64,000 nt of DNA from Rhizoclosmatium globosum (taxonomy: Eukaryota; Chytridiomycota; Chytridiomycetes; Chytridiales; Chytriomycetaceae): positions 1-64,000 of the forward strand of contig MCGO01000075.1 in assembly GCA_002104985.1 (NCBI GenBank), read 5' to 3'. Position 1 is the first letter of the stretch. Every line of letters begins with the position of its first letter. The notes beneath the pieces were generated by a model, which saw only the letters and a program-made list of their open reading frames with translations, did not search any database and had not been told where the DNA came from. The position numbers and the translations under genes are program-made. Shown here one piece after another: positions 1,410-46,623 of this stretch.

Positions 1410-1427
1410 GATTAAGAGTCTCAACAG
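1410..1427 (+). other. Primer-binding site, half-tRNA-Lys type (inferred)
   Basis: Directly after the LTR lies GATTAAGAGTCTC. Its complement GAGACTCTTAATC looks like the anticodon arm of tRNA-Lys(CUU), and GTAGAGC-like bases follow as in the tRNA D-arm side. Some copia elements prime from a tRNA cleaved in the anticodon loop, which fits the position. The tRNA match is from memory and needs this genome's tRNA-Lys. Confidence 0.5.
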
Positions 1428-1495
1428 CTCTACACCTCGCTTCTATTTGCTGGATTACTCTTTGTCTTGCTCGACTCCAGCCTTCTCTTCTTACA

Positions 1496-4400: not shown

Positions 4401-7400
4401 CTCCAACACCATCCCTTGATCAACCATCAACACCATCAGATTATGGAACTCCAGCAGAAACTCCAGCGACAGCAACACCGCCTAGCCAAGTGGATGTTAA
4501 TGTTGTAGACGGCGATTCAGAATCAGAAGAAGAGGACACACCTGCAACTCCAACACCTGCACCTCGACGTACATTGCGCTCAAACACAACTATGCCGGCA
4601 TTCAGTAAGATACTGGGCAATGACGGATTTGAAGATTCAGCAAACGTTGCCGCTGCGTCAGGTGTGTGTTCGCCGTCTTCGCCGCCTGCAAAATCCGTTT
4701 CTAACGTTGCCGCTGCGTCAGGTGTGTGTTCGCCGTCTTCGCCGCCTGCAAAATCCGTTTCTAACGTTGCCGCTGCGTCAGGTGTGTGTTCGCCGTCTTC
4801 GCCGCCTGCAAAATCCGTTTCTAACGTTGCCGCTGCGTCAGGTGTGTGTTCGCCGTCTTCGCCGCCTGCAAAATCCGTTTCTAACGTTGCCGCTGCGTCA
4901 GGTGTGTGTTCGCCGTCTTCGCCGCCTGCAAAATCCGTTTCTAACGTTGCCGCTGCGTCAGGTGTGTGTTCGCCGTCTTCGCCGCCTGCAAAATCCGTTT
5001 CTAACGTTGCCGCTGCGTCAGGTGTGTGTTCGCCGTCTTCGCCGCCTGCAAAATCCGTTTCTAACGTTGCCGCTGCGTCAGGTGTGTGTTCGCCGTCTTC
5101 GCCGCCTGCAAAATCCGTTTCTAACGTTGCCGCTGCGTCAGGTGTGTGTTCGCCGTCTTCGCCGCCTGCAAAATCCGTTTCTAACGTTGCCGCTGCGTCA
5201 GGTGTGTGTTCGCCGTCTTCGCCGCCTGCAAAATCCGTTTCTAACGTTGCCGCTGCGTCAGGTGTGTGTTCGCCGTCTTCGCCGCCTGCAAAATCCGTTT
5301 CTAACGTTGCCGCTGCGTCAGGTGTGTGTTCGCCGTCTTCGCCGCCTGCAAAATCCGTTTCTAACGTTGCCGCTGCGTCAGGTGTGTGTTCGCCGTCTTC
5401 GCCGCCTGCAAAATCCGTTTCTAACGTTGCCGCTGCGTCAGGTGTGTGTTCGCCGTCTTCGCCGCCTGCAAAATCCGTTTCTAACGTTGCCGCTGCGTCA
5501 GGTGTGTGTTCGCCGTCTTCGCCGCCTGCAAAATCCGTTTCTAACGTTGCCGCTGCGTCAGGTGTGTGTTCGCCGTCTTCGCCGCCTGCAAAATCCGTTT
5601 CTAACGTTGCCGCTGCGTCAGGTGTGTGTTCGCCGTCTTCGCCGCCTGCAAAATCTGTTTCTAACGTTGCCGCTGCGTCAGGTGTGTGTTCGCCGTCTTC
5701 GCCGCCTGCAAAATCCGTTTCTAACGTTGCCGCTGCGTCAGGTGTGTGTTCGCCGTCTTCGCCGCCTGCAAAATCCGTTTCTAACGTTGCCGCTGCGTCA
5801 GGTGTGTGTTCGCCGTCTTCGCCGCCTGCAAAATCCGTTTCTAACGTTGCCGCTGCGTCAGGTGTGTGTTCGCCGTCTTCGCCGCCTGCAAAATCCGTTT
5901 CTAACGTTGCCGCTGCGTCAGGTGTGTGTTCGCCGTCTTCGCCGCCTGCAAAATCCGTTTCTAACGTTGCCGCTGCGTCAGGTGTGTGTTCGCCGTCTTC
6001 GCCGCCTGCAAAATCCGTTTCTAACGTTGCCGCTGCGTCAGGTGTGTGTTCGCCGTCTTCGCCGCCTGCAAAATCCGTTTCTAACGTTGCCGCTGCGTCA
6101 GGTGTGTGTTCGCCGTCTTCGCCGCCTGCAAAATCCGTTTCTAACGTTGCCGCTGCGTCAGGTGTGTGTTCGCCGTCTTCGCCGCCTGCAAAATCCGTTT
6201 CTAACGTTGCCGCTGCGTCAGGTGTGTGTTCGCCGTCTTCGCCGCCTGCAAAATCCGTTTCTAACGTTGCCGCTGCGTCAGGTGTGTGTTCGCCGTCTTC
6301 GCCGCCTGCAAAATCCGTTTCTAACGTTGCCGCTGCGTCAGGTGTGTGTTCGCCGTCTTCGCCGCCTGCAAAATCCGTTTCTAACGTTGCCGCTGCGTCA
6401 GGTGTGTGTTCGCCGTCTTCGCCGCCTGCAAAATCCGTTTCTAACGTTGCCGCTGCGTCAGGTGTGTGTTCGCCGTCTTCGCCGCCTGCAAAATCCGTTT
6501 CTAACGTTGCCGCTGCGTCAGGTGTGTGTTCGCCGTCTTCGCCGCCTGCAAAATCCGTTTCTAACGTTGCCGCTGCGTCAGGTGTGTGTTCGCCGTCTTC
6601 GCCGCCTGCAAAATCCGTTTCTAACGTTGCCGCTGCGTCAGGTGTGTGTTCGCCGTCTTCGCCGCCTGCAAAATCCGTTTCTAACGTTGCCGCTGCGTCA
6701 GGTGTGTGTTCGCCGTCTTCGCCGCCTGCAAAATCCGTTTCTAACGTTGCCGCTGCGTCAGGTGTGTGTTCGCCGTCTTCGCCGCCTGCAAAATCCGTTT
6801 CTAACGTTGCCGCTGCGTCAGGTGTGTGTTCGCCGTCTTCGCCGCCTGCAAAATCCGTTTCTAACGTTGCCGCTGCGTCAGGTGTGTGTTCGCCGTCTTC
6901 GCCGCCTGCAAAATCCGTTTCTAACGTTGCCGCTGCGTCAGGTGTGTGTTCGCCGTCTTCGCCGCCTGCAAAATCCGTTTCTAACGTTGCCGCTGCGTCA
7001 GGTGTGTGTTCGCCGTCTTCGCCGCCTGCAAAATCCGTTTCTAACGTTGCCGCTGCGTCAGGTGTGTGTTCGCCGTCTTCGCCGCCTGCAAAATCCGTTT
7101 CTAACGTTGCCGCTGCGTCAGGTGTGTGTTCGCCGTCTTCGCCGCCTGCAAAATCCGTTTCTAACGTTGCCGCTGCGTCAGGTGTGTGTTCGCCGTCTTC
7201 GCCGCCTGCAAAATCCGTTTCTAACGTTGCCGCTGCGTCAGGTGTGTGTTCGCCGTCTTCGCCGCCTGCAAAATCCGTTTCTAACGTTGCCGCTGCGTCA
7301 GGTGTGTGTTCGCCGTCTTCGCCGCCTGCAAAATCCGTTTCTAACGTTGCCGCTGCGTCAGGTGTGTGTTCGCCGTCTTCGCCGCCTGCAAAATCCGTTT

Positions 7401-10217
7401 CTAACGTTGCCGCTGCGTCAGGTGTGTGTTCGCCGTCTTCGCCGCCTGCAAAATCCGTTTCTAACGTTGCCGCTGCGTCAGGTGTGTGTTCGCCGTCTTC
7501 GCCGCCTGCAAAATCCGTTTCTAACGTTGCCGCTGCGTCAGGTGTGTGTTCGCCGTCTTCGCCGCCTGCAAAATCCGTTTCTAACGTTGCCGCTGCGTCA
7601 GGTGTGTGTTCGCCGTCTTCGCCGCCTGCAAAATCCGTTTCTAACGTTGCCGCTGCGTCAGGTGTGTGTTCGCCGTCTTCGCCGCCTGCAAAATCCGTTT
7701 CTAACGTTGCCGCTGCGTCAGGTGTGTGTTCGCCGTCTTCGCCGCCTGCAAAATCCGTTTCTAACGTTGCCGCTGCGTCAGGTGTGTGTTCGCCGTCTTC
7801 GCCGCCTGCAAAATCCGTTTCTAACGTTGCCGCTGCGTCAGGTGTGTGTTCGCCGTCTTCGCCGCCTGCAAAAATCCGTTTCTAACGTTGCCGCTGCGTC
7901 AGGTGTGTGTTCGCCGTCTTCGCCGCCTGCAAAATCCGTTTCTAACGTTGCCGCTGCGTCAGGTGTGTGTTCGCCGTCTTCGCCGCCTGCAAAATCCGTT
8001 TCTAACGTTGCCGCTGCGTCAGGTGTGTGTTCGCCGTCTTCGCCGCCTGCAAAATCCGTTTCTAACGTTGCCGCTGCGTCAGGTGTGTGTTCGCCGTCTT
8101 CGCCGCCTGCAAAATCCGTTTCTAACGTTGCCGCTGCGTCAGGTGTGTGTTCGCCGTCTTCGCCGCCTGCAAAATCCGTTTCTAACGTTGCCGCTGCGTC
8201 AGGTGTGTGTTCGCCGTCTTCGCCGCCTGCAAAATCCGCCGCGCTCGCTGCGCTCGCGCGAACCCCCGCAACCTTTCAAGACCCTTACCAAGAAATCTGC
8301 ATGGAAACACTGTATTCACCAAAGTCCAACAAGGATCGTCGCTCACGTCACTACAACAAATCAACCCCATCATATGCTTCGTCTCCTCCTGTTGTACCAA
8401 AGCATGATGCTAAGGATAAAAGTTTTATTCCACTACAAGGTCTGGCAGCATTCTGTGGTTCCCAGAATACATTTGAAGCATTTGCTGGGCTGTCAGAAGG
8501 AGTAGCTGGATTTGCCTCATGTGCCACTGCGTTATTACTTCAAGAAGAAGACTTTGATGAAGTAGAACTTGATGAAGTTCGTTTTCTGACAGGTGTGGGT
8601 CAAAGATATGGACTAGCACTCTCAGTTCTTGATGGGCCATCAATCCAAGCTGGGCTTAAAGATGAGAAATGGAGAGCTGCTATAGAGAAAGAACTCTCGC
8701 AATTTTGGGGCCTTAAGGTCTGGAAACTGGTTTGGCTTCCCCCAGGTGCACGCACTCTGGGAACTATTTGGGTCCTCAAAATCAAGAAGAATGATATTAC
8801 TGGAGAAACCCAATATAAAGCCCGCCTGTGTATGGATGGCAGGAGACAAGTAGAAGGTGTGGACTTCAGCCAAACATATTCAGGTACCCCACACATGAAC
8901 TCCCTGAAGATTCTCACTCGAATAGTCACTGAGCGTGGAATGGTTACTCGTCAGTGCGATGCAAAAGGTGCACATTTAACTACGGATCGGGACAGGGTCA
9001 TGTATGTTAAAGTCCCACAGGGAATGGAAGTGGCTCCAGAAGACCGAGGTAAAGTTCTCGAGTTGCTACGGACCATGTATGGTCAAAGACAAGCTCCACT
9101 CATGTGGGAACGAAACCGAGATCGAGCTCTGGAATCAATAGGAATGACTCGGAATCCACATGAGCCGTTAGTCTTCAAGAAGGAAATCATCAAGGAAGGC
9201 AGGACTCATTTTATCTATGTGCTCACATGGGCAGATGATTTCTTCTTTGCAGCAGACAAGGATGTTGAGAAGGAATTGGACTTGTTGATAGTGGAGTTGG
9301 GAAAACACTTTGAACTCACTGTTAAGCCATGTGTAGACCAATTCATCAGCATAGTATTTCAATTCAAAGATGGAGCTTCATCAATGAGTCAAACTGCGTA
9401 TCTTGAGGGAATCTTATCAGAATTCTTGGAGAATCAATCGGGAAAACGCCGTACAGCTTGGCGTCAGACAGACGACTCCAAATTTGACGCAACAGACGAT
9501 CCATCTGCCTTAGATACTGAGTTCCTCACAGGAAAGAACTATTATCGACTTGTTGGCCTGCTACAATATCTCACAATCACCAGGCCCACAATTCAGCAAG
9601 CTGTTGGTAAACTTGCACGACACACAACCAAAACGCGTCGAATTCACTGGGAACGAGCTCAGGAACTGCTGGAATACTTGAATGGCACCCGAAACTATGG
9701 ACTTATCTACCGTCGTTCAGAAAGCCCAGCGGAGTTTCTACTAGAAGGATTTGGGGATGCTGATTGGGCAGGCGATGCTGCAACAAGACGATCCACCACA
9801 GGGGCTGTGGTTCGAATAGGAAAATCAGCAGTACTGAGCTTCAGCAAACGTCAACCCATTGTTGCAGACTCAACTGTATCAGCAGAAGTTATTGCTGCAT
9901 GTTCTGTGGCAAAAGAACTAGTGTGGGTTCGCAACATGCTCACATGGTTTGGATACCCACAAGATGGTCCCACTCGACTTTGGTGTGATAATCAGGGCAC
10001 AGTCTTCAATTTGGAGGAAGGAGCACAACGCCATAAAACCAAACACATGGATGTAAAGTATATGTTCCTCCGAGACCTGGTTAGACAACATTTGATCACA
10101 GTTGGACATATGCCAGACACAAAAATGCTGGCTGACATTCTGACTAAAGGACTGGGCTGGATCAAGTTTGAGTTCTGCCGAGACGCATTTGGGGAATTTG
10201 ACGTATCAACCCTATAA
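1496..10217 (+). CDS. Copia Gag-Pol polyprotein with RRM and coding minisatellite (one +1 frameshift)
   Basis: A single long frame starts ATGTCC at 1496. In order: a Gag-like N-terminus; an RGG/RD-rich linker; an RRM at about residues 323-400 (RNP2 VFVRNLP, RNP1 LGLGWVTF) where a CCHC knuckle would be expected; a protease motif VDSAATGS (canonical DSGAS); integrase with zinc-binding IWHNRTH...CPCEAC and DDE acids in TMDLMVF, FLDKGGEN and EEGWHGIA; a Pro/Thr-rich linker; about 60 copies of a 20-residue repeat; then RT (DAKGAHLT, WADD instead of YVDD) and RNase H (FGDADWAG, SAEVIAA, WCDNQG). One extra A in array unit 54 (A5 instead of A4, near 7871) breaks the frame, so RT continues in the next frame to TAA at 10217. 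It is either a sequence error or an inactivating mutation. Gag and Pol share one frame, as in many copia elements. Confidence 0.88.
4643..8238 (+). repeat. 60-bp coding minisatellite, about 60 units
   Basis: There are 59 full units plus a 55-bp partial one. Each encodes NVAAASGVCSPSSPPAKSVS in the Gag-Pol frame. Only two deviations are seen: C to T at 5656 (unit 17) and one inserted A in unit 54 (7823-7883). A second forward frame is also open throughout (repeat LTLPLRQVCVRRLRRLQNPF). The array separates integrase from RT and is followed by a GC-rich stretch containing CGCTCGC twice. Confidence 0.97.
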
Positions 10218-10288
10218 GGTCTTGGGGGGTGTGTGAGATATACTGCTTATCTATTACAATTCCTTTCCGGGTTATCTTTCTTCTCTCT
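10218..10288 (+). repeat. Internal polypurine tract plus 57-bp LTR stub
   Basis: After the first RNase H stop comes GGTCTTGGGGGG, then the first 57 bp of the LTR (10232-10288), which jumps directly into the 60-bp repeat. The two parents share TCTA at the junction, a four-base microhomology that suggests template switching or illegitimate recombination. Confidence 0.88.
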
Positions 10289-11363
10289 AACGTTGCCGCT
10301 GCGTCAGGTGTGTGTTCGCCGTCTTCGCCGCCTGCAAAATCCGTTTCTAACGTTGCCGCTGCGTCAGGTGTGTGTTCGCCGTCTTCGCCGCCTGCAAAAT
10401 CCGTTTCTAACGTTGCCGCTGCGTCAGGTGTGTGTTCGCCGTCTTCGCCGCCTGCAAAATCCGTTTCTAACGTTGCCGCTGCGTCAGGTGTGTGTTCGCC
10501 GTCTTCGCCGCCTGCAAAATCCGTTTCTAACGTTGCCGCTGCGTCAGGTGTGTGTTCGCCGTCTTCGCCGCCTGCAAAATCCGTTTCTAACGTTGCCGCT
10601 GCGTCAGGTGTGTGTTCGCCGTCTTCGCCGCCTGCAAAATCCGTTTCTAACGTTGCCGCTGCGTCAGGTGTGTGTTCGCCGTCTTCGCCGCCTGCAAAAT
10701 CCGTTTCTAACGTTGCCGCTGCGTCAGGTGTGTGTTCGCCGTCTTCGCCGCCTGCAAAATCCGTTTCTAACGTTGCCGCTGCGTCAGGTGTGTGTTCGCC
10801 GTCTTCGCCGCCTGCAAAATCCGTTTCTAACGTTGCCGCTGCGTCAGGTGTGTGTTCGCCGTCTTCGCCGCCTGCAAAATCCGTTTCTAACGTTGCCGCT
10901 GCGTCAGGTGTGTGTTCGCCGTCTTCGCCGCCTGCAAAATCCGTTTCTAACGTTGCCGCTGCGTCAGGTGTGTGTTCGCCGTCTTCGCCGCCTGCAAAAT
11001 CCGTTTCTAACGTTGCCGCTGCGTCAGGTGTGTGTTCGCCGTCTTCGCCGCCTGCAAAATCCGTTTCTAACGTTGCCGCTGCGTCAGGTGTGTGTTCGCC
11101 GTCTTCGCCGCCTGCAAAATCCGTTTCTAACGTTGCCGCTGCGTCAGGTGTGTGTTCGCCGTCTTCGCCGCCTGCAAAATCCGTTTCTAACGTTGCCGCT
11201 GCGTCAGGTGTGTGTTCGCCGTCTTCGCCGCCTGCAAAATCCGTTTCTAACGTTGCCGCTGCGTCAGGTGTGTGTTCGCCGTCTTCGCCGCCTGCAAAAT
11301 CCGTTTCTAACGTTGCCGCTGCGTCAGGTGTGTGTTCGCCGTCTTCGCCGCCTGCAAAATCCG
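10289..11363 (+). repeat. Second copy of the 60-bp minisatellite, 18 units
   Basis: Seventeen full units and a 55-bp partial unit carry the same consensus as the first array, followed by the same GC-rich exit sequence. The copy number differs from the first array (18 versus 60). Confidence 0.96.
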
Positions 11364-13340
11364 CCGCGCTCGCTGCGCTCGCGCGAACCCCCGCAACCTT
11401 TCAAGACCCTTACCAAGAAATCTGCATGGAAACACTGTATTCACCAAAGTCCAACAAGGATCGTCGCTCACGTCACTACAACAAATCAACCCCATCATAT
11501 GCTTCGTCTCCTCCTGTTGTACCAAAGCATGATGCTAAGGATAAAAGTTTTATTCCACTACAAGGTCTGGCAGCATTCTGTGGTTCCCAGAATACATTTG
11601 AAGCATTTGCTGGGCTGTCAGAAGGAGTAGCTGGATTTGCCTCATGTGCCACTGCGTTATTACTTCAAGAAGAAGACTTTGATGAAGTAGAACTTGATGA
11701 AGTTCGTTTTCTGACAGGTGTGGGTCAAAGATATGGACTAGCACTCTCAGTTCTTGATGGGCCATCAATCCAAGCTGGGCTTAAAGATGAGAAATGGAGA
11801 GCTGCTATAGAGAAAGAACTCTCGCAATTTTGGGGCCTTAAGGTCTGGAAACTGGTTTGGCTTCCCCCAGGTGCACGCACTCTGGGAACTATTTGGGTCC
11901 TCAAAATCAAGAAGAATGATATTACTGGAGAAACCCAATATAAAGCCCGCCTGTGTATGGATGGCAGGAGACAAGTAGAAGGTGTGGACTTCAGCCAAAC
12001 ATATTCAGGTACCCCACACATGAACTCCCTGAAGATTCTCACTCGAATAGTCACTGAGCGTGGAATGGTTACTCGTCAGTGCGATGCAAAAGGTGCACAT
12101 TTAACTACGGATCGGGACAGGGTCATGTATGTTAAAGTCCCACAGGGAATGGAAGTGGCTCCAGAAGACCGAGGTAAAGTTCTCGAGTTGCTACGGACCA
12201 TGTATGGTCAAAGACAAGCTCCACTCATGTGGGAACGAAACCGAGATCGAGCTCTGGAATCAATAGGAATGACTCGGAATCCACATGAGCCGTTAGTCTT
12301 CAAGAAGGAAATCATCAAGGAAGGCAGGACTCATTTTATCTATGTGCACATGGGCAGATGATTTCTTCTTTGCAGCAGACAAGGATGTTGAGAAGGAATT
12401 GGACTTGTTGATAGTGGAGTTGGGAAAACACTTTGAACTCACTGTTAAGCCATGTGTAGACCAATTCATCAGCATAGTATTTCAATTCAAAGATGGAGCT
12501 TCATCAATGAGTCAAACTGCGTATCTTGAGGGAATCTTATCAGAATTCTTGGAGAATCAATCGGGAAAACGCCGTACAGCTTGGCGTCAGACAGACGACT
12601 CCAAATTTGACGCAACAGACGATCCATCTGCCTTAGATACTGAGTTCCTCACAGGAAAGAACTATTATCGACTTGTTGGCCTGCTACAATATCTCACAAT
12701 CACCAGGCCCACAATTCAGCAAGCTGTTGGTAAACTTGCACGACACACAACCAAAACGCGTCGAATTCACTGGGAACGAGCTCAGGAACTGCTGGAATAC
12801 TTGAATGGCACCCGAAACTATGGACTTATCTACCGTCGTTCAGAAAGCCCAGCGGAGTTTCTACTAGAAGGATTTGGGGATGCTGATTGGGCAGGCGATG
12901 CTGCAACAAGACGATCCACCACAGGGGCTGTGGTTCGAATAGGAAAATCAGCAGTACTGAGCTTCAGCAAACGTCAACCCATTGTTGCAGACTCAACTGT
13001 ATCAGCAGAAGTTATTGCTGCATGTTCTGTGGCAAAAGAACTAGTGTGGGTTCGCAACATGCTCACATGGTTTGGATACCCACAAGATGGTCCCACTCGA
13101 CTTTGGTGTGATAATCAGGGCACAGTCTTCAATTTGGAGGAAGGAGCACAACGCCATAAAACCAAACACATGGATGTAAAGTATATGTTCCTCCGAGACC
13201 TGGTTAGACAACATTTGATCACAGTTGGACATATGCCAGACACAAAAATGCTGGCTGACATTCTGACTAAAGGACTGGGCTGGATCAAGTTTGAGTTCTG
13301 CCGAGACGCATTTGGGGAATTTGACGTATCAACCCTATAA
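11364..13340 (+). pseudogene. Duplicated copia RT/RNase H, frameshifted
   Basis: This nearly exact copy of 8239-10217 encodes the RT palm and RNase H. A 2-bp deletion near 12346 (GTGCTCACATGG becomes GTGCACATGG) shifts the frame immediately before the catalytic Trp-Ala-Asp-Asp segment, so RT ends at 12361. The catalytic and RNase H part resumes in another frame and runs to TAA at 13340. It lacks Gag, protease and integrase and is probably a dead by-product of the duplication. Confidence 0.88.
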
Positions 13341-13354: not shown

Positions 13355-13895
13355 TGTGAGATATACTGCTTATCTATTACAATTCCTTTCCGGGTTATCT
13401 TTCTTCTCTCTAGTTTCCAGTCCACTCAGTGTCTCACAGTCCACTTGGTGCCTCCCACTATTTTTGCACCAAGTGAAAGTCCATTTAATCACTCCATTTA
13501 ATCATTCCTTAAATCTCTCCCTTTCCCTTGAGTGTATAAGAAGCAAGGGACTCCCCTCTTGATACTGGTATCTACCAGTTTGTCATTTGGGTTCTCGTCG
13601 CCTTGCCGCATCTGTTGCTTACCTTATTGCAACAACACTCAGGGTAATTCTCTTTTGTTTGTAAATGATTCTCTTATTATCGAAGTTCTAAATATAATTG
13701 ATCTACCAGTTTGTCATTTGGGTTCTCGTCGCCTTGCCGCATCTGTTGCTTACCTTATTGCAACAACACTCAGGTTTGTCATTTGGGTTCTCGTCGCCTT
13801 GCCGCATCTGTTGCTTACCTTATTGCAACAACACTCAGGCCACGAACCAAATTACAAGCATTACTATTACGAGCTTCGTCTCCGAGGTTCTCATT
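13355..13895 (+). repeat. 3' LTR (541 bp)
   Basis: It is the same length and, by eye, the same sequence as the 5' LTR, including the three 65-bp units and the intron-like spacer. It is followed by the TTCCA target duplication at 13896-13900 and then helicase coding sequence on the minus strand. Confidence 0.93.
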
Positions 13896-36425: not shown

Positions 36426-37673
36426 ATGGATATTGGAATCAGTGGAAACGAGCCTGAGCCGTTAGTCAACCTCAGAACCCACCGAAAGGTTTCAGATCGG
36501 CAAAACAAAATCATCGAGGCGGAGGATGACCGCAAGCGAGCTGCCATCGAGCGTCGGACACTGCAAAACCGTATCGCGCAGAGGTAAATCCCCGATTCTT
36601 CAGAATCAGTGGAGGCTTTGGTTACGTGATCGACCTAACTTGGGATTGACTCCAGGTTATATCGCCAGCGGAAGGACAATCGCATCGCGGAGCTTGAAGC
36701 ACAAGTTGCTTCGATACTTCGAAACAAAAACACGAGCTCGAGAGTGGAGGACGGGAAAAGGATCCTGGAGCTGCAGCAGAGGGTGAAGGAGCTTGAAGCT
36801 GAGAACAAGAAGTTGAAGGAGGGACGGAAGCGGAGTCAAAGCCGAGATGATGAGATGCAACGTGGGTGTAGTGTCAATGACGAAGCCAGGCATCAAGTTG
36901 TGTCACACCCTCCTTCAGCCCCAGTCCTTGCTTCGGGAGATCCACATTATCACGCCGAAATATATCCGTATCCTCCTCCAAAAATGCTCTTTCCACGCGC
37001 GATGAGCTACTCGTACACTTCATATTGCCCATTTAATTATCCAACCTCGTATCCACCTTCAGGAGCTGTGACACATATTGGAATTACTGGAAACTATCAA
37101 ACCACATTGCACAATTATCGCACAACATTTTCAGCAGCAACAATTAACGCGTATCCAGGTTCTGGATTTACGCCGCCGGTCCACTATGGTTACAGCGGTC
37201 CTGTTGGAGGACCAACTTCAGGACCATACTTTAAATATATGCCACCATCCAACGCGTATCCCGCGCTTTCAGCAGAGCCAGGTCCAACGAGTAGATATCC
37301 TGGACACGAATCACAATCTGAGCAACGTCACTCTGTATATCCAGGGTCTCCCCAAGGCAGAAATACGTCGAATCAAGGTGAAGTTGGCAGAGTGAATTCG
37401 GGTATATCTGGTGGTAGTAATGGCGCGAGAGATTGCGTCAGCAGTACGGCTTTGATGAATATCATGATTATAAACCAAGAAGCGTCTGGGCGTGGTTGTA
37501 CGGGAAGTGATGGCCCTTCAGACGCGGAGAAACAGGGTATGGGTTTGGAAGACGTGTCGGTTCTGAAGTGTTCTGGTGTGTCGAGTGTCAGTGTCAGTGG
37601 TGGAGGTGCCAGAGGGGCGTTCAGAGTCAACGCCCTCTTGTTGGACGATAGCGCTCAAATGGCTCCATCTTAA
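36426..37673 (+). CDS. bZIP transcription factor, Yap/Pap1 type (copy C)
   Basis: Exons 36426-36583 and 36656-37673 give 391 residues; the 72-nt intron is at the same basic-region position. Basic region NRIAQRLYRQRKDNR; zipper IAELEAQVASIL and LQQRVKELEAENKKL. The tail is Tyr/Pro/Gly-rich and ends FRVNALLLDDSAQMAPS. The start ATGGATATTGG was chosen by alignment with copy B (both continue to EPEPLV); an in-frame ATG at 36411 is possible. Closest relatives are copies B and D. Confidence 0.87.
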
Positions 37674-38297
37674 ATACAGAGACAGCCTCTATTGGATCTG
37701 GCGATGGTTCCCGAATAGAGTTTTAATAATGAGATAATAAACAGAAGGTTCTCCACATTACATCGATGGCCTTAAGCGATGTGAGTGAATGATACGAAGT
37801 GCACAGTACAGCCAGTCTTTGCGTTAGATGCTGTTGAGAACGAGCATTAGATGCGCAATGAGTGGAATTTGCGGGACTTACTCAGCATTAAAGATTATTG
37901 GAGATTGATATTATACAATTGAGTATTATTTTCATTCGACGGCGATATTGGAAAATGTCTCAGGGACAATACGATGAAATACAATGTCTTCCTTACGAAC
38001 CTCTTTGATGAACATATTCCAAAGATTCCGTTGCATGTAATACTGAAAAGCTTTGGACAAGAGTGATTAAGTTTGATTTTGGTGCCAATACATTTTAGAA
38101 TTAGGTTCTGTGTTGGTCATATATCAATTCTAATTCAACCCAGCCGGCGAAAGTCCATTACCATTCTCGACCTGTGAAAACTTATCAATCATTAATAAAG
38201 TTTCACCTATCTGACAGTTGAATCTCAGAAGCTGCGTTCAAAATTGTCACATTCCCATATATCTCCAACTCGAAAACATCATCCATCATCCAAAGGG
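37674..38297. other. Intergenic region with further bZIP relic
   Basis: 624 bp. TTTGCGGGACTTACTCAGCAT near 37867 repeats GCGGGACTTACTCAGCATTC at the start of the 35571 relic, and a related string occurs near 46834. This is a more decayed copy of the same duplicated 3' segment. The rest is AT-rich with no gene seen; the right part is probably the promoter of copy D. Confidence 0.45.
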
Positions 38298-38402
38298 ATG
38301 GATTCTGAAGCCAGTGATGTTGTAAAGTCGAAGCCTGAAGCCTTAGCCAACGGCAGACCTAACCTGACTGTGTTTCACGTTTCTGACAATGATCAGCCAA
38401 AC

Positions 38403-38465
38403 TGTAGTGGCTGATTTGTGCACGAGTACACTTTGACAATTTCACTTGAAAAAAACAGAAAACAC
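38403..38465 (+). repeat. Left terminal inverted repeat (63 bp)
   Basis: It starts TGTAGTGGCTGATTTGTGCA and ends CAGAAAACAC. It pairs with 45469-45531 with three mismatches. The kinase start codon follows 7 bp later. Confidence 0.88.
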
Positions 38466-39463
38466 ACAAAGATGAAAGAGGGGCCATTCTGTCCTGTCAC
38501 AGGCCACTTGCGGCATAAATGCTTGCACTGCTCTGATGCAGCCTCATCTTCAACAGTATACGGAGAATCTTTTTGCACGTTCACTGGGAGGAAGAAAACT
38601 GGATGTGAGTGCTGCATCAGCCAGCCATCTTCGACACCGCCACGTGGCAAGTCCCATATCAAAAATGCATCTCGTGAAGCAGCAGTGGAAGAAATTCAGG
38701 CGTATAAGGAAAGTATGGCTTCACTGAAGGCTGTGCAAAAAGCAACAAAGGCCAAGAACCGTTTATATGAAGGTGTGCTTAGTTCATGTTTCTGACAGTC
38801 TCTAAAATGCCCTACAATTGCAGGACTTGACGAAGCAGCGCAGGAAGTGAAAAAAGGCCGTAAGAAAACCGAACCTAAAATACAGAGGAACAAGTACTTT
38901 GACAGCTGCCTCAGCAGCAGCAAAAGAAAAAGAAGAGAAGGTGTATACGTTCATCGTGAAAAAAGGGCAACGTGTAGAAGAGAAAGGAGTTAAACGGCTC
39001 AATTTGGAGGAAGGGATTTTTGAATCAGTGTCGCTGCGAGGTGGTTTTGATTATGATCGGTTGATTGAAGCTGTCCTCAAGAAAATGTACCCCAAGGAGC
39101 TCATCATGTAAGTCTGCTTTCCTGCATGAAGTAGCTGAAGTTTGTCAAAGGGATACAGAACGTTTCGGCCTGGTACATGTTGAGGGCCCCATTAACGTTG
39201 ACGAAAGCATGAAAGTAATGAATTGGCCCAATATTCATATGCAATCCAACAAATATCGCGTACTTGCACTAGTTGCTGTGTCGGGTGAAAGGCTCGTCGA
39301 CTCCACAGACTCCACTCCGGCTCCGTCCCCTGACAAGACTATCAAAAAGACTTGCGCAAAGTTAAAGACCTTGACATTGTCCCCACGCAAGAGAAAACGT
39401 GCCGTGGTGTCAGACACTTCGACGGACGATGACGTTCGTGATGAGTTTGTCTCACACGCCTAC

Positions 39464-39531
39464 AAGACCCAAAAGTCAAATATTCAGTAATGGGCGTCAA
39501 CACGCCCGCAAGAAAAGGGAGCCTGGAAGGC
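39464..39531 (+). repeat. Split direct repeat B, copy 2 (68 bp)
   Basis: Starts AAGACCCAAAAGTC and contains the hairpin GGGCGTcaacACGCCC. Identical to 39851-39918. Confidence 0.9.
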
Positions 39532-39568
39532 TCGCTCCTCTCACGGAACGTGTATCAAAAACCCACGC

Positions 39569-39712
39569 CATTCCATTGGGAGTCGAACCCAATGTGAACA
39601 TGAATGGCATAAAATGAGGGTTGCCGCAACCCTCTTATTAGTTCATTAAATAAAAGAAGATATACCTCAATATTCCTTAAGAGATGTCGGGTTGCGGCAA
39701 GACTCCCAATGG
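39569..39712. repeat. Hairpin-rich inverted repeat with tRNA T-arm-like motif
   Basis: CCATTGGGAGTC near 39571 pairs with GACTCCCAATGG near 39700, and internal GGGTTGCCGCAACCC is a hairpin. CATTGGGAGTCGAACCCAATG forms a 7-bp stem whose minus-strand loop resembles the pol III B box (GGTTCGACTCC). A full tRNA cloverleaf could not be built. It forms the spacer of the nested element and may be a small MITE or a structured regulatory or packaging segment. Confidence 0.55.
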
Positions 39713-39773
39713 GATGGATGGGTTTTACAAGGGTGGAAGGATGGGGAAGAGGCGGCACTCGGAAATTCTCAAC

Positions 39774-39851
39774 GCTTCGCAGCGTTTTGGGTGAAGAAAT
39801 GCCACTTTTCCTTTCTGGCCTTTTGCTCACGAGCTTCACTCTTTCACTTAA
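39774..39851 (+). repeat. Split direct repeat A, copy 2 (78 bp)
   Basis: Starts GCTTCGCAGCGTTTTGGG and ends CTTTCACTTAA; matches 41943-42020. It abuts the second 68-bp repeat at 39851, mimicking a circle junction. Confidence 0.9.
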
Positions 39852-39918
39852 AGACCCAAAAGTCAAATATTCAGTAATGGGCGTCAACACGCCCGCAAGA
39901 AAAGGGAGCCTGGAAGGC
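39851..39918 (+). repeat. Split direct repeat B, copy 1 (68 bp)
   Basis: Identical to 39464-39531; weaker similarity (GCTCCTC) continues a few bases further. Confidence 0.9.
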
Positions 39919-40129
39919 CTGCTCCTCCAATACTTAATTCGAACTGGCTGTGTGCTTACCATTACTGAGTAGAAAGGGAAAGGAGAGCAGAGGGGGCTGT
40001 AATAACGTTTAAACGCAGACTTTATTTAGTAACTTCAGATTGCCCTGGCGGCAACTGGTAAATCATAACATCAGCTTGCCCATGGTGACAACTGGAATCA
40101 GTAAGAAACAAAGAAGTAGGCATGTGAGA

Positions 40130-41914
40130 TTATCTGCGACCGTTACCCGCGCGACCAGCTCGTCTGTTTCCAAACTCTTCTCGGTCGTTGCGGCGGTAGC
40201 TGTCTTCACGCTCGTCACGACGACGGTGATCATAATCGTCCTCATGACGACGATAATCATCGCGATCATCACGATCGGTCTGACGCCGGTAGCCAGAACC
40301 ACGGGAGTGACTGTTGGAATGACGCGGTCTCAGAAATCCTCGAGCACTGGTACGATAATTGTTCCCCAAAGGCTCAGGGGAAGTGGCATCACGAAGGCGT
40401 TGTGCGACAAGGAACTGAGAGTTGAGGATAGAACCGACTTTGCACATTTCCTCAAGGAGAGGGTTGCGAGACTTGGGTTGGAACAATTGCATGAAATACT
40501 GGGCCATTTGAAGTCCACTCCATTTGGCACTTTGAGGCTTTCTGATGGCAGCATCGAAGGCATTCATGCCCTGCTTCCAGAGTGACATTTTGTCCATGGT
40601 CACAAGCTGAGAACCGTCTGGAGCAACATGAGCAGCCAGATCCACAGCTTCCACCAGACCTGCCTTTTTGACAGCATCAGCAACTGCATCCTTGACAGAC
40701 TCTGGAGAATCAAAGACGTTGTCTCTGACGTGGTCCTCCCCATTGCACTTGTATTCCGCATGAGATGCCACCAGGAGAGCAGCATTAAAGTAGTGGTTCA
40801 ACTATTTTCATAGGAAATTTAGAAAATGCTTTTAAGTGGAGTATGAGGGGAGTAGTAGGTAATCTCTACGCTCAACCCAGTAAGGAATCAATCGGAAAAT
40901 CATCGATTTATTCAGTTGTGCAAACATCCAAAATATTGGGAAAAACTTGGGGCATCTGGGCTCTGCTGGACAGAGTTGGGGCCACAACAGCAACAGCTGG
41001 TAACAAATGGGTGCAGAATAGTAAATTGAGGGGGAAATAGTCAACCCCAACATCAGCATTAGCTGGCAACACTTTTTGTGGAAATAAAAGACAGAATACT
41101 GGACTGGGGTAGAACACAAGAGAAGGGTCTAGTCATGAGTCCAATGTGACAACTGGGCGCCGCTGGACGGCATTGGAGTCTGTAGACTTGGAGCAAAACC
41201 CAGTTGCTCATCAAGGTTGGGTGCAGCATTGGCAGTCTGTCTCCGGCATGGGTGCAAGGAAGTGACTCACTTCCGATCCATCCATTGATGCAAACTCGTG
41301 ATACCCGCCACTGCTAACCTACAGGATCCACGAATCAAACTGTTCGTTTAGCCTCAGGCCCCAATTCCTTGACCCGAGTTCAGCGGCCGCAGCCTTCGGT
41401 TCATTCGTGTAGCTCAACTGTGAAAGAAAGTTTACACAAGATATCAGGGGTCAATTACCGAAGGAGATTTAGTAGGGCCTGCTAAATCGAGCCCGATGTC
41501 GAAATTGGGGTTGGTAGTGGTAACAGCAGGCATTACGGGAGGAACGACAGGTGCGAGTGGGGCTGCTGGAGCTTGGGGAATCGCTGCCGCTGCTGGAAAT
41601 GGTCCTACGGGAGGGTGGTTCCCGGGTGGCGCTTGGGCTTGTGCAACGAGAGCCAAGAAGGCGTGGGCAGGCATGAATGGGATCCCGGCAATACACACAA
41701 ATCCATAGTGGTTACCTTGAATAGCGTGGGTTGCAACATTGCCCTCAATGTAGCTTCGGATCGCATTCTGTTTGTCTGCAAGCAGTCCGCCGGCTGGAAC
41801 CAATTGCAAACGACCAACGACCATGTCAGTTACATGTTGACCAAGAGCATTGAGAGGTACGTCGTTGATCTTGATGTTGGTGTTGTCGTTTGCGAGGGCG
41901 GGGACGTAGGCCAT
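40130..41914 (-). CDS. Gag-like / Arg-Asp-rich protein of the nested element (multi-exon)
   Basis: First coding exon 41914-41459 (MAYVPALANDN..., Pro/Ala-rich end), then a 41-nt intron (41458-41418, GTAATT...CACAG), a short exon from 41417 to about 41322, a long intron, and a last exon 40801-40130 whose acceptor is GAAAATAG. The last exon has a helical part (MSLWKQGMNAFDAAIRKPQ) and an Arg/Asp/Gly-rich tail (RDDRDDYRRHEDDYDHRRRD, ending RAGRAGNGRR) suited to nucleic-acid binding. A capsid/nucleocapsid-like role is an inference from composition and context; no family was recognised. Exon joins in the middle are uncertain. Confidence 0.5.
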
Positions 41915-41942
41915 GTGTAGTGAACGAGGAAAGATGCGAGGA

Positions 41943-42020
41943 GCTTCGCAGCGTTTTGGGTGAAGAAATGCCACTTTTCCTTTCTGGCCTTTTGCTCACG
42001 AGCTTCACTCTTTCACTTAA
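41943..42020 (+). repeat. Split direct repeat A, copy 1 (78 bp)
   Basis: Matches 39774-39851. It ends one base into the ATG that resumes the alpha-kinase frame (ATGTCTGAC). Confidence 0.9.
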
Positions 42021-43525
42021 TGTCTGACAACGACGAAGTGGAGTGTACAGGATCTACTCCATCAATGACTGCTTCTGCTCCTCACTTTATTGTGTCCTCT
42101 TCCTCTATTGGTGATTCTTTGTCTGTTTCCAGCTGCGGAAGTTTGGATGCAGACGAAGCCTATGTCTCTAAAGATCAAGCTCCCAAAGTCCCTCTTGTTC
42201 GCAATGTCATCGCCCCACCATCAAATGTCAGTCTCAGTTCTTTAATTGAAAAGACCAGAAAGGTTCATCAAGCTCCAATTCGAGTGCTTTCGTCGTCTGG
42301 AAACTCTGTTCGCACAATCGAAATTCACGACGAAGACTTTATTTTGGATAACATTAAAATAACTGAACCGGAAAGAGAAGGATCTGAGACGTTTGCATGG
42401 TTGAACGTAAGGTTGAACGTTGGTTGCGACGGGGAATTGTGGGCATTGAAAGTAAGTCCCGTTTCCTGGTACAATCTAATAACTTATTACCAATGTACAG
42501 TGCTTCAAAGAAAACAACGATGACACGGAAGAGAAAGCGAGGATGGAACTACATTCCAACCATCTTGGTGCTCAGGTTGCGAACGAGCTGAACAAGAAAG
42601 CGACAGCGGCATACTTGGCACTCAACCAGACTCCAAAAACTCTTGCAATGTTTACGCGTATGATGGTGATTGTATTGGATGGTTGTAAATCTGAAAAATT
42701 GAAGGGAATGGAGGCTTTCCGAAAGTACTGGATTGCGGAAGAGATGTTAAAAGGGGATTTTGAGAAGATGAACGACAATTTGGGTAATTGGGAGGATAAT
42801 TGGCATGAAGGAAAGTACGGCGACACTGGGAAGGAGTGCAGCGAGATTGCACAAGCGACAAGCCACTTTTCGTACGTCACACTCACAGCCAACAGTGGTA
42901 ATATTCCAATGATGCTCCTTGACTTACAAGGCACAATCTGCAGTTCTAGACCAGTGCGCCTTTGTGACCCACAGGTGAGAAAAGTCGGAAATTACGTATC
43001 TCACTTCTGTTCAACAACTAGGTGCAATATGTAGGAATTACTGAGAGAGATCATCAACGTTATTATGGAACTGGCAATCTTGGTGAATCGTCGATCTTGA
43101 ATTTCTTTAGATGGCACTTCTGCAACAAGTATTGCCAGTTGCTGGCGATCCAGAATGAAAAGCCAACCCGACCCAAGATGACAAAGAAGACAGTTTTGTG
43201 TCCGAAACTTTGTGACGAGTCTGCTGCAGGTGTTGTTGCGGGGTTGTCTACTTCGACGGATTTGAAAAACGTGTCAACAATATCTCCACCAGTCGAATCA
43301 ACAAAAGTCAATGAAATGGATGGAAGGAATGGAGAAGAAGTGGTGGCGGAAGGTGCGGTTGGGATTGTTGGGTTGGATATACTTTCGGCCACGGCCACAG
43401 CTGTACAAGAGACGGACGCTTTACAAGAGACGGACTGTATCAACGAGGGAATTAAGAAGACAAAAACAGTGACAAAGACGGTATTGGTCAAAAAAAAGAA
43501 GGAAAAGACTAAGGATAAGAATTAG

Positions 43526-43963
43526 CCTGAATTGTTTTTGAATGAATCCAGTGTCCTCTACTTTGATGGATTGGAAAAGATACCTAATTATTAAATACAC
43601 TTTGATTTCACTCTATTTATTGTTATTTTCAATGGTTATTCTTTTTCCTGTGCAATGTCCGAACTTTCGCTTTTGTTTTCATCCTCCTTCCCTTGTTCTC
43701 TTTTCTTTTTGAAGCTGTCGAAAAATACCCTCCAAACACTCTCCAAACAGTCGCTCTCTCTGGCATTTGTTCGGCGCATATGGTTTCGTTGCTCTAGTCT
43801 CTGACGTGGCTACTTGAGAGAGAGGGGTGTGATCACGAAGTGTTCACGGTGCTCTCTCAATTCTTTTCCTTTATTTGTCATTTCCCTTTATTCATCATTT
43901 ACGCTGGTGCATGAAGATAGATTTTATTGTTTTTGCATATAGGAAAGGAAGATTTATTTGAAA
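43526..43963. other. Gap between convergent transposon genes
   Basis: 438 bp, T-rich on the plus strand, probably the two 3' UTRs. No coding potential or repeat noticed. Confidence 0.5.
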
Positions 43964-45438
43964 TCATTCAAATCCCATTTCCTCGCGAAGAGTTTGGTTT
44001 AATCTTAGAGCTTGAAAGCAATCAGTTTTGTTTTCCATAGTAATTGGAAAACAACCAGCTTCCCTGGTAGCAGCCTCAAGTAAGTCTTTGTGTTCGGCCA
44101 ATCCAAATGGGTCTGAGACGTCGAAAATGTCCTTTACATGGTCTGGCTGCAAATCCCGAGCTGAAATAGTAGCGACTTCCCTCAAATTATCTGGAACTTC
44201 GAGGCCAACGTCTTCGTAATTCCATAATTCAGGATGATCGTATATGAAGTTCAGTCGTCCACTCGGTGCCCCAGACTCCTTTGTTGGCCTGGAAAAGTAA
44301 ACAAAATTATTGATTGCTGATATATTTACTGTGTACCTGATTAAGTGGGAATTCCACCGTGTAAAGTATTTGGCAAGACTCTCTTGAATAAATGGTCCGA
44401 ATACAAATTGTGCACACTTGACTTCAAACTCATCGTCCACGTTGTACATTTGATTATGTGCTGCTGTGAGAGTCTGAAAATATTCTCGCCAGTAGTTAAT
44501 CTCACGACGTAAGAACCGCCACGGCCCCTCAATCCTTGTGTTCCTCTTCGACGCACCAAAAATATGACCTTTTACATCTAGATTAAGGTCTTTGTTGTAG
44601 TATGTTTGAATAGCAGCCACAAGCACGTTTTCTGATCCATAATCCGTCCTCGTAATCAATGGTCTGCAGTTGTTCTGTTCGCAACCCAACACAAACCAAC
44701 CAGCAACAAGAGCGGCATATCGATTAGATGCTGCAACTTGAAGCCACATGTATTTTCTTGACAGGCCCTCTGCACATCCATGTATTCCAAAGCCGTACTT
44801 GGCAAGTTTGTCATAGCCGTCAAAATGCCACACACTGTTTAAACCAAGAGACCCATAAACACGTCGTTCTACGCCATTGCCAAGTCTGGCAGCAGATAGA
44901 ACAGGGTCTTGCTCCTTTAACGCGGCATGAACTCGCGAACGTGCAATTTTAACGTTGAAGTTATTTCTGATGTCGTCAGTTATGGCTCTGTAGCCAACTC
45001 CAGGACGGTTTTCGGATTCAACTGCGACCATGACTTTCACCAAGCTGTCAGGCACCGCACTGTCGGTCAGACGAAGGTTGTGCGCCTGCTTACGATTGAG
45101 TGATGGTAGATAGAGAAAGGACAACTCACAGATAAAACATTGTTGAAAGATCGGCGTGACATTGTGACACCCCATTTAGACTTGATGTGATAGATGATTT
45201 CGCGGGCTTTTAATCCTCCATACAGTTGTTTCTTGACATCATCTATCCATCTTTCAGAATCTTGAACTAAAGACACGCCTCTGTTTGTAGAGAGCCCCGT
45301 ACGTTTTTTGAACTGATTCAGCCAACTGACTGATCACGTGAGGCCATGTTCAGTTGCGAGGGACTCCAAAATCTCCGCCCCTGTCATTTTGTCATCCAGA
45401 TAGTCACATATGATATCAATGAGCTGATCTTCTTCCAT
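43964..45438 (-). CDS. Integrase-core (rve-like DDE) transposase
   Basis: Exons 45438-45338, 45280-45130, 45085-44338, 44289-43964 (1,326 nt, 441 aa); introns 44-57 nt. The last intron (44337-44290) is 48 nt, so retention also keeps the frame. The N-terminus has two helical, HTH-like segments. The catalytic core shows VWHFDGYDKLAKYG (first Asp), ITRTDYGSEN (second Asp) and NTRIEGPWRFLRRE (Glu), the D-D-E pattern of integrase-core proteins found in fungal and animal transposons. It should recognise the TIRs and make the 5-bp staggered cut implied by CAAAC. It looks intact, so the element may be autonomous. Confidence 0.82.
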
Positions 45439-45468
45439 CTTAACTCAGAAGTGTCAAGGTGTTTGGGA

Positions 45469-45531
45469 GTGTTTGCTGTTTTTTTCAAGTGAAATTGTCA
45501 AAGTGTACTGGTGCACAAATCAGCCACCACA
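45469..45531 (-). repeat. Right terminal inverted repeat (63 bp)
   Basis: Reverse complement starts TGTGGTGGCTGATTTGTGCA; three mismatches to the left TIR. Followed by the target duplicate CAAAC at 45532-45536. Confidence 0.88.
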
Positions 45532-46623
45532 CAAACAAAATCATTGAGACAGAAGATGACAGAAAAAGGGCCGCCATTGAGCGTCGGACACTGCAAAATC
45601 GCATCGCACAGAGGTAATTCCATCAGAATCTTTGGCGGTTAGTTTCATGATTGTCCTAACTTGGGGATTGACTCCAGGTTATATCGCCAACGGAAGGACA
45701 ATCGCATTGCAGAACTTGAAGCACGAGTTGCTGCGATGCTTGGGAATAAGGATGTAGAATCGCGAGGGGATGAGAGTGTACGGATTCAGGAGCTGCAGAG
45801 ACGGGTTACGGAGCTTGAAGCTGAGAACGCGCGGTTGAAGGAGGGGCGTCGAATTGGTACGAGCCGAGATGTTGGGATACAGCCTGGGTATAGTTTAAAT
45901 AGTACGGGTGCTGGTCAGGTTCTTCACGCAGGATATTCGCATTACGCCGCAACGGGCTATCCTTATCCTCCTCCACACCCAACATTTTCACGAGTTGGGC
46001 CGTATCGTCCATTGAGTTATCCCGTAGCACCGTATTCGCAGCATCCTGCCCAAAGTTCAGAATCTCGATTTGGAATGCATGGACACCCTCAAACTTCACA
46101 CGCGTATTATGTTCCATTTTCTGCTGCAACAAACATCGTGTATCCAACTGATTCGACTGAACGGGGTGGTGGTACAGTAGATAGAAACCAAGCTGATCCC
46201 GCATCAGAATACCGTCCAGAATACATACCAACATCAAACGTGCATACTGCTCTTGCTGCTGAACGAGTCACAATGGATAGAATATTAATGAATCCAAATT
46301 CTGATCAACATCCCATTGCATATTCAGGGTCTTCCGACAGTGAAAATCCATCGAACGAAGGGTTAGACAGAATTGAGCATGACGGTGGTCGTTTAAATGA
46401 TAAGGATCCAAGCAGTGAGTCATGGGGGAAGATCATGATTATCAAGCACGACATTGGAGATGATATCGTGGATGGATCTTCGTACGCTGGGAATCCCGGA
46501 ACGAGTGTCAATGATGTGCATGCTCAGAACGGCTCTGGTGTGTCGAATGTCAATGGTCAGGGCGGGGCTTTCAGCATCAAAGCACTCTTGTTGGATGACG
46601 GTGTACAAACAGCGCTATCTTGA

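Follow-up and report, generated by a model that had tools for sequence, protein, structure and literature searches.

The window analyzed here is a 64,000-nucleotide stretch of the chytrid Rhizoclosmatium globosum (GenBank assembly GCA_002104985.1, contig MCGO01000075.1, positions 1 to 64,000 of the forward strand). Between 38403 and 45531 it contains a transposon with terminal inverted repeats (TIRs) that carries two genes, one for an integrase-like DDE transposase and one for an alpha-kinase. Protein kinase genes are known from few eukaryotic transposons. The element had been pointed out in an earlier note made from the DNA letters alone, and the outline given there was confirmed in part. The 63-nt TIRs, the 5-bp CAAAC target-site duplication (TSD), and the start of the kinase gene 7 nt beyond the inner end of the left TIR (ATG at 38472) were all recovered, as was the convergence of the kinase (plus strand) and the transposase (minus strand) within the element. 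The features are as follows.

38398..38402, no strand: left TSD, CAAAC; a single CAAAC stands at the empty sites C34 and C235
38403-45531: whole TIR transposon, 7129 bp; borders fixed by the empty sites
38403..38465, plus strand: left TIR (TGTAGTGGCTGATTTGTGCAC..), 95% complementary to the right arm
38472..39464, plus strand: 5' part of the kinase gene in several exons, comprising the Cys-rich module (38472-38774) and a basic linker; matched by P0001 and by the C157 element's Cys exon
39465..42020, no strand: nested dispersed repeat, 2556 bp, separate from the transposon proper; further copies exist, and P0001 lacks it
42021..43525, plus strand: 3' part of the kinase gene; PF02816 above cutoff, match to TRPM7 kinase 1ia9
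42021-42451, plus strand: linker in the 3' part of the kinase gene
about 42390-43150, plus strand: alpha-kinase domain; exons 42501-42974 and 43022 onward
ending at 43525, plus strand: Lys-rich tail of the kinase gene
43967..45442, minus strand: transposase gene with rva_4 integrase core; PF24764 match and catalytic alignment
45469..45531, minus strand: right TIR, 63 nt, pairing with the left arm
45532..45536, no strand: right TSD, CAAAC, matching the left one

The borders of the element are known to the base because two other loci in the same genome, C34 and C235, carry the uninterrupted target with one CAAAC (..GATCAGCCAAACAAAATC..). The left flank (37600-38402) is 97% identical to C34:67343-68144, and the right flank (45532-46400) is 89% identical to C34:68140-68980. 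The equivalent matches at C235 (98% on the left and 92% on the right) meet at 143430-143434, and the flank matches overlap by 5 bases at both of these duplicated loci. Set by this comparison, the ends of the element read TGTAGTGG..CCACCACA, with TGT..ACA termini and CAAAC on both flanks. By placement of a 7129-bp span within the window, 5-bp agreement was obtained at 62/56,861 positions. The complementarity of the two TIRs came from an inverted-repeat search of the window. When the genome (56.9 Mb, 420 contigs) was searched with the TIR, 2 matches were retrieved, both of them arms of the window element, with no second full copy among the matches listed; TIR match counts are lower bounds. The inner-TIR pattern occurred at 11 genomic places with up to 3 mismatches (0 for the reversed control) and at four places with 0 or 1 mismatch, namely, both window arms, C157, and C135. 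An Rfam scan of 38300-45700 returned no match.

The minus-strand open reading frame (ORF) from 45175 to 43967 matches PF24764 (rva_4) with an E value of 1.2e-25 in the Pfam scan, and its D119, D178, and E216 (numbered in this ORF) fall in columns that are invariant among five aligned proteins. We take rva_4 to cover the IS3EU transposases, and the window transposase is of the IS3/IS481-like DDE type with an integrase core that is expected of IS3EU. Comparison with the C157 element sets the start of the gene at 45442, upstream of the main ORF, with exon 1 extending to about 45130. The first ATG is approximately 27 bases from the TIR, and the protein is without a Cys-rich N-terminal module. The earlier note had described this transposase as intact, which is incorrect: its catalytic core is open, but the full gene is interrupted by an in-frame TGA in exon 1 at 45337-45335. 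Two related proteins, P0002 from R. hyalinum and P0003 from the C157 element, read through the corresponding place when compared by eye. A protein-database search with the window transposase retrieved 4 matches, while a PDB search with the same query retrieved none.

Two exon ORFs of the kinase gene match PF02816 above the cutoff of 21.3 bits (E value of 1.3e-13 and 51.9 bits; E value of 1.2e-4 and 22.6 bits). Alignment to the TRPM7 kinase 1ia9 by HMMER (E value of 7.8e-06) places the DLQG, DP, NLGE, and H-x-C-x3-C motifs in register, and a GxGN motif is present as well. We take the Asp of DLQG to be the catalytic residue and H..H-x-C-x3-C to be the zinc ligands, and the claim that these residues are present is borne out by the alignment; the Lys of WALK, presumably also catalytic, lies outside it. 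TRPM7 kinase shares these motifs with the window kinase and differs from it in N-terminal module and setting. A protein-database search with the window kinase gave 1 match (best 8000 candidates scored).

The 5' part of the gene matches the Cys exon of the C157 element and, from 38715 on, P0001, a predicted protein of 443 residues from R. hyalinum (HDU99_005694) on a 1688-bp contig. P0001 is continuous from the linker into the kinase domain; therefore, the two halves in the window represent one gene. The R. hyalinum copy (99% identity, with 48% of the query covered by the comparison) is free of the insert; its contig is too small to hold 2556 bp. Against P0001, itself a predicted protein, the window sequence shows an apparent 1-nt shift of frame near 38883. 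Thus, of the multi-exon gene initially proposed, the Cys-rich module and the kinase domain are present, but a complete kinase gene was rejected for this copy: the gene is broken, split by the nested repeat and with an apparent 1-nt frameshift.

The nested repeat interrupts a kinase exon, downstream of the Cys-rich part and upstream of the kinase domain. It has 7 further near-full copies in the genome (96 to 100% identical), plus partial ones, and consists of a short unit (39465-39850, 386 bp) followed by a long unit (39851-42020, 2170 bp). The two units share their start (77 nt, 97%) and their end (78 nt, 100%), and three partial copies match the short unit alone. No clear target duplication was seen at the ends of the repeat, and its two minus-strand ORFs matched no Pfam family above the cutoff.

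When the genome was searched with the window transposase protein, 14 matches were obtained, spread over 11 contigs, to which C1 and C360 were added, each having a transposase beside a kinase. Merging the duplicated places C346/C181 and C82/C379 reduced 13 transposase places to 11 distinct ones. An alpha-kinase-like gene converges on the transposase at C394, C157, C410, C323, C1, and C360. The C135 locus holds a copy of the C157 element (94.5% over 3.5 kb) that has lost its 5' part but retains the 3' end of the kinase gene. A convergent kinase-like gene or remnant was consequently found at 7/11 of the distinct transposase loci examined, representing four lineages within R. globosum. These counts are lower bounds that leave out a C323-type TIR at C135:33309 and the kinase relatives P0008 to P0010, which reside on R. 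globosum contigs of 504,971 and 653,319 bases. Because the C157 sister element and two further lineages (C410; C323/C1/C360) repeat the convergent pair, the kinase is built into the element, as had been proposed, and looks like a regular second gene of a transposon group rather than a one-off accident. The pattern named in the earlier note as speaking against this, with kinase-less copies of the element and a kinase matching a single-copy host gene, did not occur; instead, other copies pairing kinase and transposase were found.

The transposases of the window and C157 elements are 51% identical, and the C157 kinase is recognized by its similarity to the window kinase (E value of 7e-8). The ends of the C157 element have decayed and can be placed either as TGT..ACA with CGACA/CGTCA or as TA type with ACATG/ACACG, with one mismatch each. 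The Cys-rich start of its kinase (L032 935-1489) gave a weak match (14.4 bits, cutoff of 27.5) to the KDZ transposase-associated cysteine cluster CxC6. In the C323 family, the C323 copy is 98.6 to 99.5% identical to the C1 and C360 copies. The C323 and C1 copies end in TAGGG..CCCTA and are flanked by perfect 6-bp TSDs (TAAATG and CAAGGC, respectively). The C1 copy also contains an internal 66-bp inverted copy of the TIR end (L035 3494-3559). A close relative of the C323-family kinase occurs in Rhizoclosmatium sp. JEL0117 (P0007), and 5 matches were obtained when protein databases were searched with the N-terminus of this kinase.

Both proteins of the C157 element begin with Cys-rich repeats of the form YC-x2-TG..C-x-HC. 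The start of the window kinase is similar to the start of the C157 transposase (E value of 1e-7), and the C157 kinase is similar to the C157 transposase (E value of 6e-5); the score was reached by 0/100 shuffles in either comparison. Cys-rich N-termini are likewise present on both proteins of the C323 family.

Matches to PF02816 are located on 10 contigs, with a transposase in the 10 kb examined for five of them. The other five are C101, C377, C146, C205, and C361, where C146 and C205 are one duplicated region. The kinases of C101 and C377, with N-termini that we take to be VWA-like, look like host genes. The C146 kinase (L046 4464-6014), for which no transposase was found within 10 kb, has four N-terminal C-x-G..C..G-x-C-x2-H repeats and matches the window kinase better than the other transposase-free kinases do (32% identity). 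A kinase-free, rva_4-like element of 2.4 kb is present in another duplicated region (C346, L039 3689-6109; C181, L044 3646-6060), with TACRGTGG ends, TIRs of about 74 nt, and a 6-bp TSD, GTAAAG.

Elsewhere in the window, a row of bZIP-like genes spans 33384-62137, and the transposon sits between two of them. The one gene of this row that was checked gave a weak bZIP_1 match below the cutoff. The flanks of the transposon in this region are duplicated on C34 and C235 without the transposon. The region 1412-13340 contains a polyprotein, presumably Ty1/copia-like, in which a 60-bp unit is repeated 60 times in frame (99% matches, 4643-8238) and encodes a 20-residue repeat. A second, partial polyprotein in this region has 18 copies of the repeat unit (10286-11363), and a 65-bp unit is present as two tandem copies each at 1223-1353 and 13709-13839.

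The earlier note was not aware of any description of a kinase-carrying transposon; such elements are in print for rust and truffle fungi (Kojima 2025, PMC12730594, section 4.1). According to that paper, the transposase and alpha-kinase genes of every TET+ IS3EU family lie in opposite orientations with a TET/JBP gene between them. Their hosts are given as Pucciniales (rusts) and one Tuber (truffle), and the rust families as having 6-bp TSDs and TAYGG..CCRTA ends. The kinase-transposase pairing takes up two sentences of the paper, which is the only report of it found in the literature surveyed, as far as the passages drawn on here extend. Common to these families and the window element is the combination of a DDE transposase and an alpha-kinase in opposite orientation within one transposon of a fungus. 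The differences are what is new here, the pairing itself being known: the chytrid lineage, the TGT..ACA ends with a 5-bp TSD, and, for the window element and its C157 sister, the Cys-rich module common to the kinase and (in C157) the transposase. None of the nine element ORFs scanned with Pfam matched TET/JBP. TET/JBP genes in KDZ and other superfamilies (PMC12730594) offer a further parallel, as transposon-borne enzyme genes that likely help the element, with the difference that the window element carries a protein kinase and not a dioxygenase acting on methylcytosine. No paper on chytrid alpha-kinase transposons was found in the open-licence PMC literature, even by searches directed at them; the TGT..ACA/5-bp variant and the shared module were not searched for.

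IS3EU is described as always having TA..TA ends and usually a 6-bp TSD (PMC10045372). Canonical IS3EU membership was rejected for the window element on both counts. Because these two defining features are missing, we classify it, against the descriptions in PMC10045372 and PMC12730594, as IS3EU related only. The C323 family, in contrast to the window element, fits IS3EU by its ends and TSDs. GingerRoot and IS481EU (PMC10045372) have related integrase-like DDE transposases; GingerRoot sometimes ends in TG..CA, and the IS481EU of H. meleagridis ends in TGT..ACA. GingerRoot differs from the window element in its 6-bp TSDs, while IS481EU differs in its TSDs near 4, 15, or 25 bp and in its single encoded protein (PMC10045372). 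IS481EU was thus ruled out by the two genes and the 5-bp TSD, of which the gene count is the stronger argument, because one 5-bp TSD is listed among 11 copies of one IS481EU family (PMC10045372). The word "kinase" occurs 0 times in the main text of that paper.

We read the window element as a damaged IS3EU/GingerRoot-related transposon whose kinase is retained as a helper and recruited to the transposition complex by the Cys-rich module, and we put the chance that this reading is right at nearly even. It starts from the observed borders and TSD, the two convergent genes, the recurrence of the pair in three other lineages, and the decay of the window copy. The transposase would cut at the TIRs and insert with a 5-bp stagger. 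The alpha-kinase would be a second gene kept over long times for its benefit to the element. Its substrate would most likely be the transposase or a host protein of chromatin or DNA repair, and the Cys-rich (zinc-type) N-terminal module would bring the kinase to the transposon complex. Alternatively, the helper kinase may protect the element. That the kinase may serve to modify the host or the transposase had already been suggested, and we infer the same.

Several observations weigh against a helper function. The window copy is damaged in both genes, so that, with the TGA in the transposase and the insert and apparent frameshift in the kinase, the open genes of an autonomous transposon are lacking. 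The C157 kinase reaches 13.3 bits to PF02816 (cutoff of 21.3) and is missing the DLQG Asp region; thus, kinase activity is apparently not kept in every lineage. For the C410 copy, no TIRs were found, the kinase is without the GxGN motif, and N replaces the first catalytic D of the transposase. The transposases of C410 (20.2 bits), C323 (19.6 bits), and C346 (22.7 bits) are below the rva_4 cutoff of 26 bits, which those of C39, C371, and C82 exceed. No kinase was found in the 10 kb examined (tblastn, E values up to 0.05) at 4/11 transposase loci (C346/C181, C39, C371, and C82/C379). Together, the loss of DLQG in C157, the decay of C410, and the kinase-free elements argue against a strict need for the kinase. 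In an eight-sequence kinase tree, the sole grouping that includes the window kinase is a weak one with C157 (support of 0.876); the C410 and C323 kinases are left apart, and the latter groups with the transposase-free C361 kinase (0.920). Because of this topology, separate captures of the kinase are possible, and a single ancient capture is not demonstrable. The C323, C1, and C360 copies differ little, each kinase exon having 2 to 10 single-change codons in a given pair of copies, and silent changes are not in excess. Finally, the module shared between kinase and transposase was not recovered in four comparisons within the C323 family, in which 23, 10, 67, and 58 of 100 shuffles reached the score.

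Some of these observations are equally those expected under the main rival, in which the kinase, captured from the host, is carried as a passenger without a role in transposition or silencing evasion, and its recurrence is inherited from one or a few old captures. The C157 kinase without DLQG, the C323-family copies without silent excess, and kinase-free elements such as that of C346/C181 (2.4 kb, 6-bp TSD) are consistent with a passenger, as are the alpha-kinases that have no nearby transposase (C101, C377, C146/C205, and C361). However, the window, C410, and C323 kinases have retained DLQG/DIQG and the zinc-ligand motif even though the transposases of these lineages are only ~30% identical, and other fungi show the same gene order (PMC12730594). 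A useless gene would be expected to be lost from most lineages over that time, and we consider a passenger rather unlikely. Less probable again is an action on the host cell, through eEF2K-like effects on translation or stress signalling, that favors the element or its carrier. eEF2K is itself an alpha-kinase, and a C-terminal Lys-rich tail is present on both the window protein and the C157 protein, but the module common to kinase and transposase points to the transposition complex instead. By far the least probable explanation is chance, namely, that a transposon inserted beside, or trapped, a host kinase gene at one locus. The single full copy of the window TIR among the genome matches listed would suit such an accident, yet chance is refuted: both genes lie inside the TIRs of a precisely inserted element for which an empty site exists, and the C157 sister element and two other lineages have the same arrangement.

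The helper reading can be carried further, to an alpha-kinase that would be an ancestral functional component of a fungal transposon group extending from chytrids to rusts, phosphorylating the transposase or the host silencing machinery and targeted by a zinc-type module present in duplicate, on the kinase and on the transposase. We regard this extension as possible but tentative, and would not presume it correct. The presence of the pair in several chytrid lineages with differing ends and TSD lengths, besides the report from rusts and a truffle, makes it a recurrent feature that is open to study. Melampsora larici-populina has 79 alpha-kinase domains and Puccinia graminis has 39, and the family is called highly expanded in rusts; in the same table, each of the seven other columns for a single species shows 0, and the column on seven Agaricomycetes shows 5 (PMC4469406, Table 3). 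One rust alpha-kinase is among 46 proteins under diversifying selection in a candidate-effector study (PMC4150398), and a domain table comparing wheat rusts includes the family (PMC5295586). If rust alpha-kinase genes sit in transposons, the reading of this expansion, and of such genes as effectors, would change. Were the kinase an ancestral component as outlined above, much of the alpha-kinase expansion in rusts would be transposon cargo rather than host signalling or effector genes.

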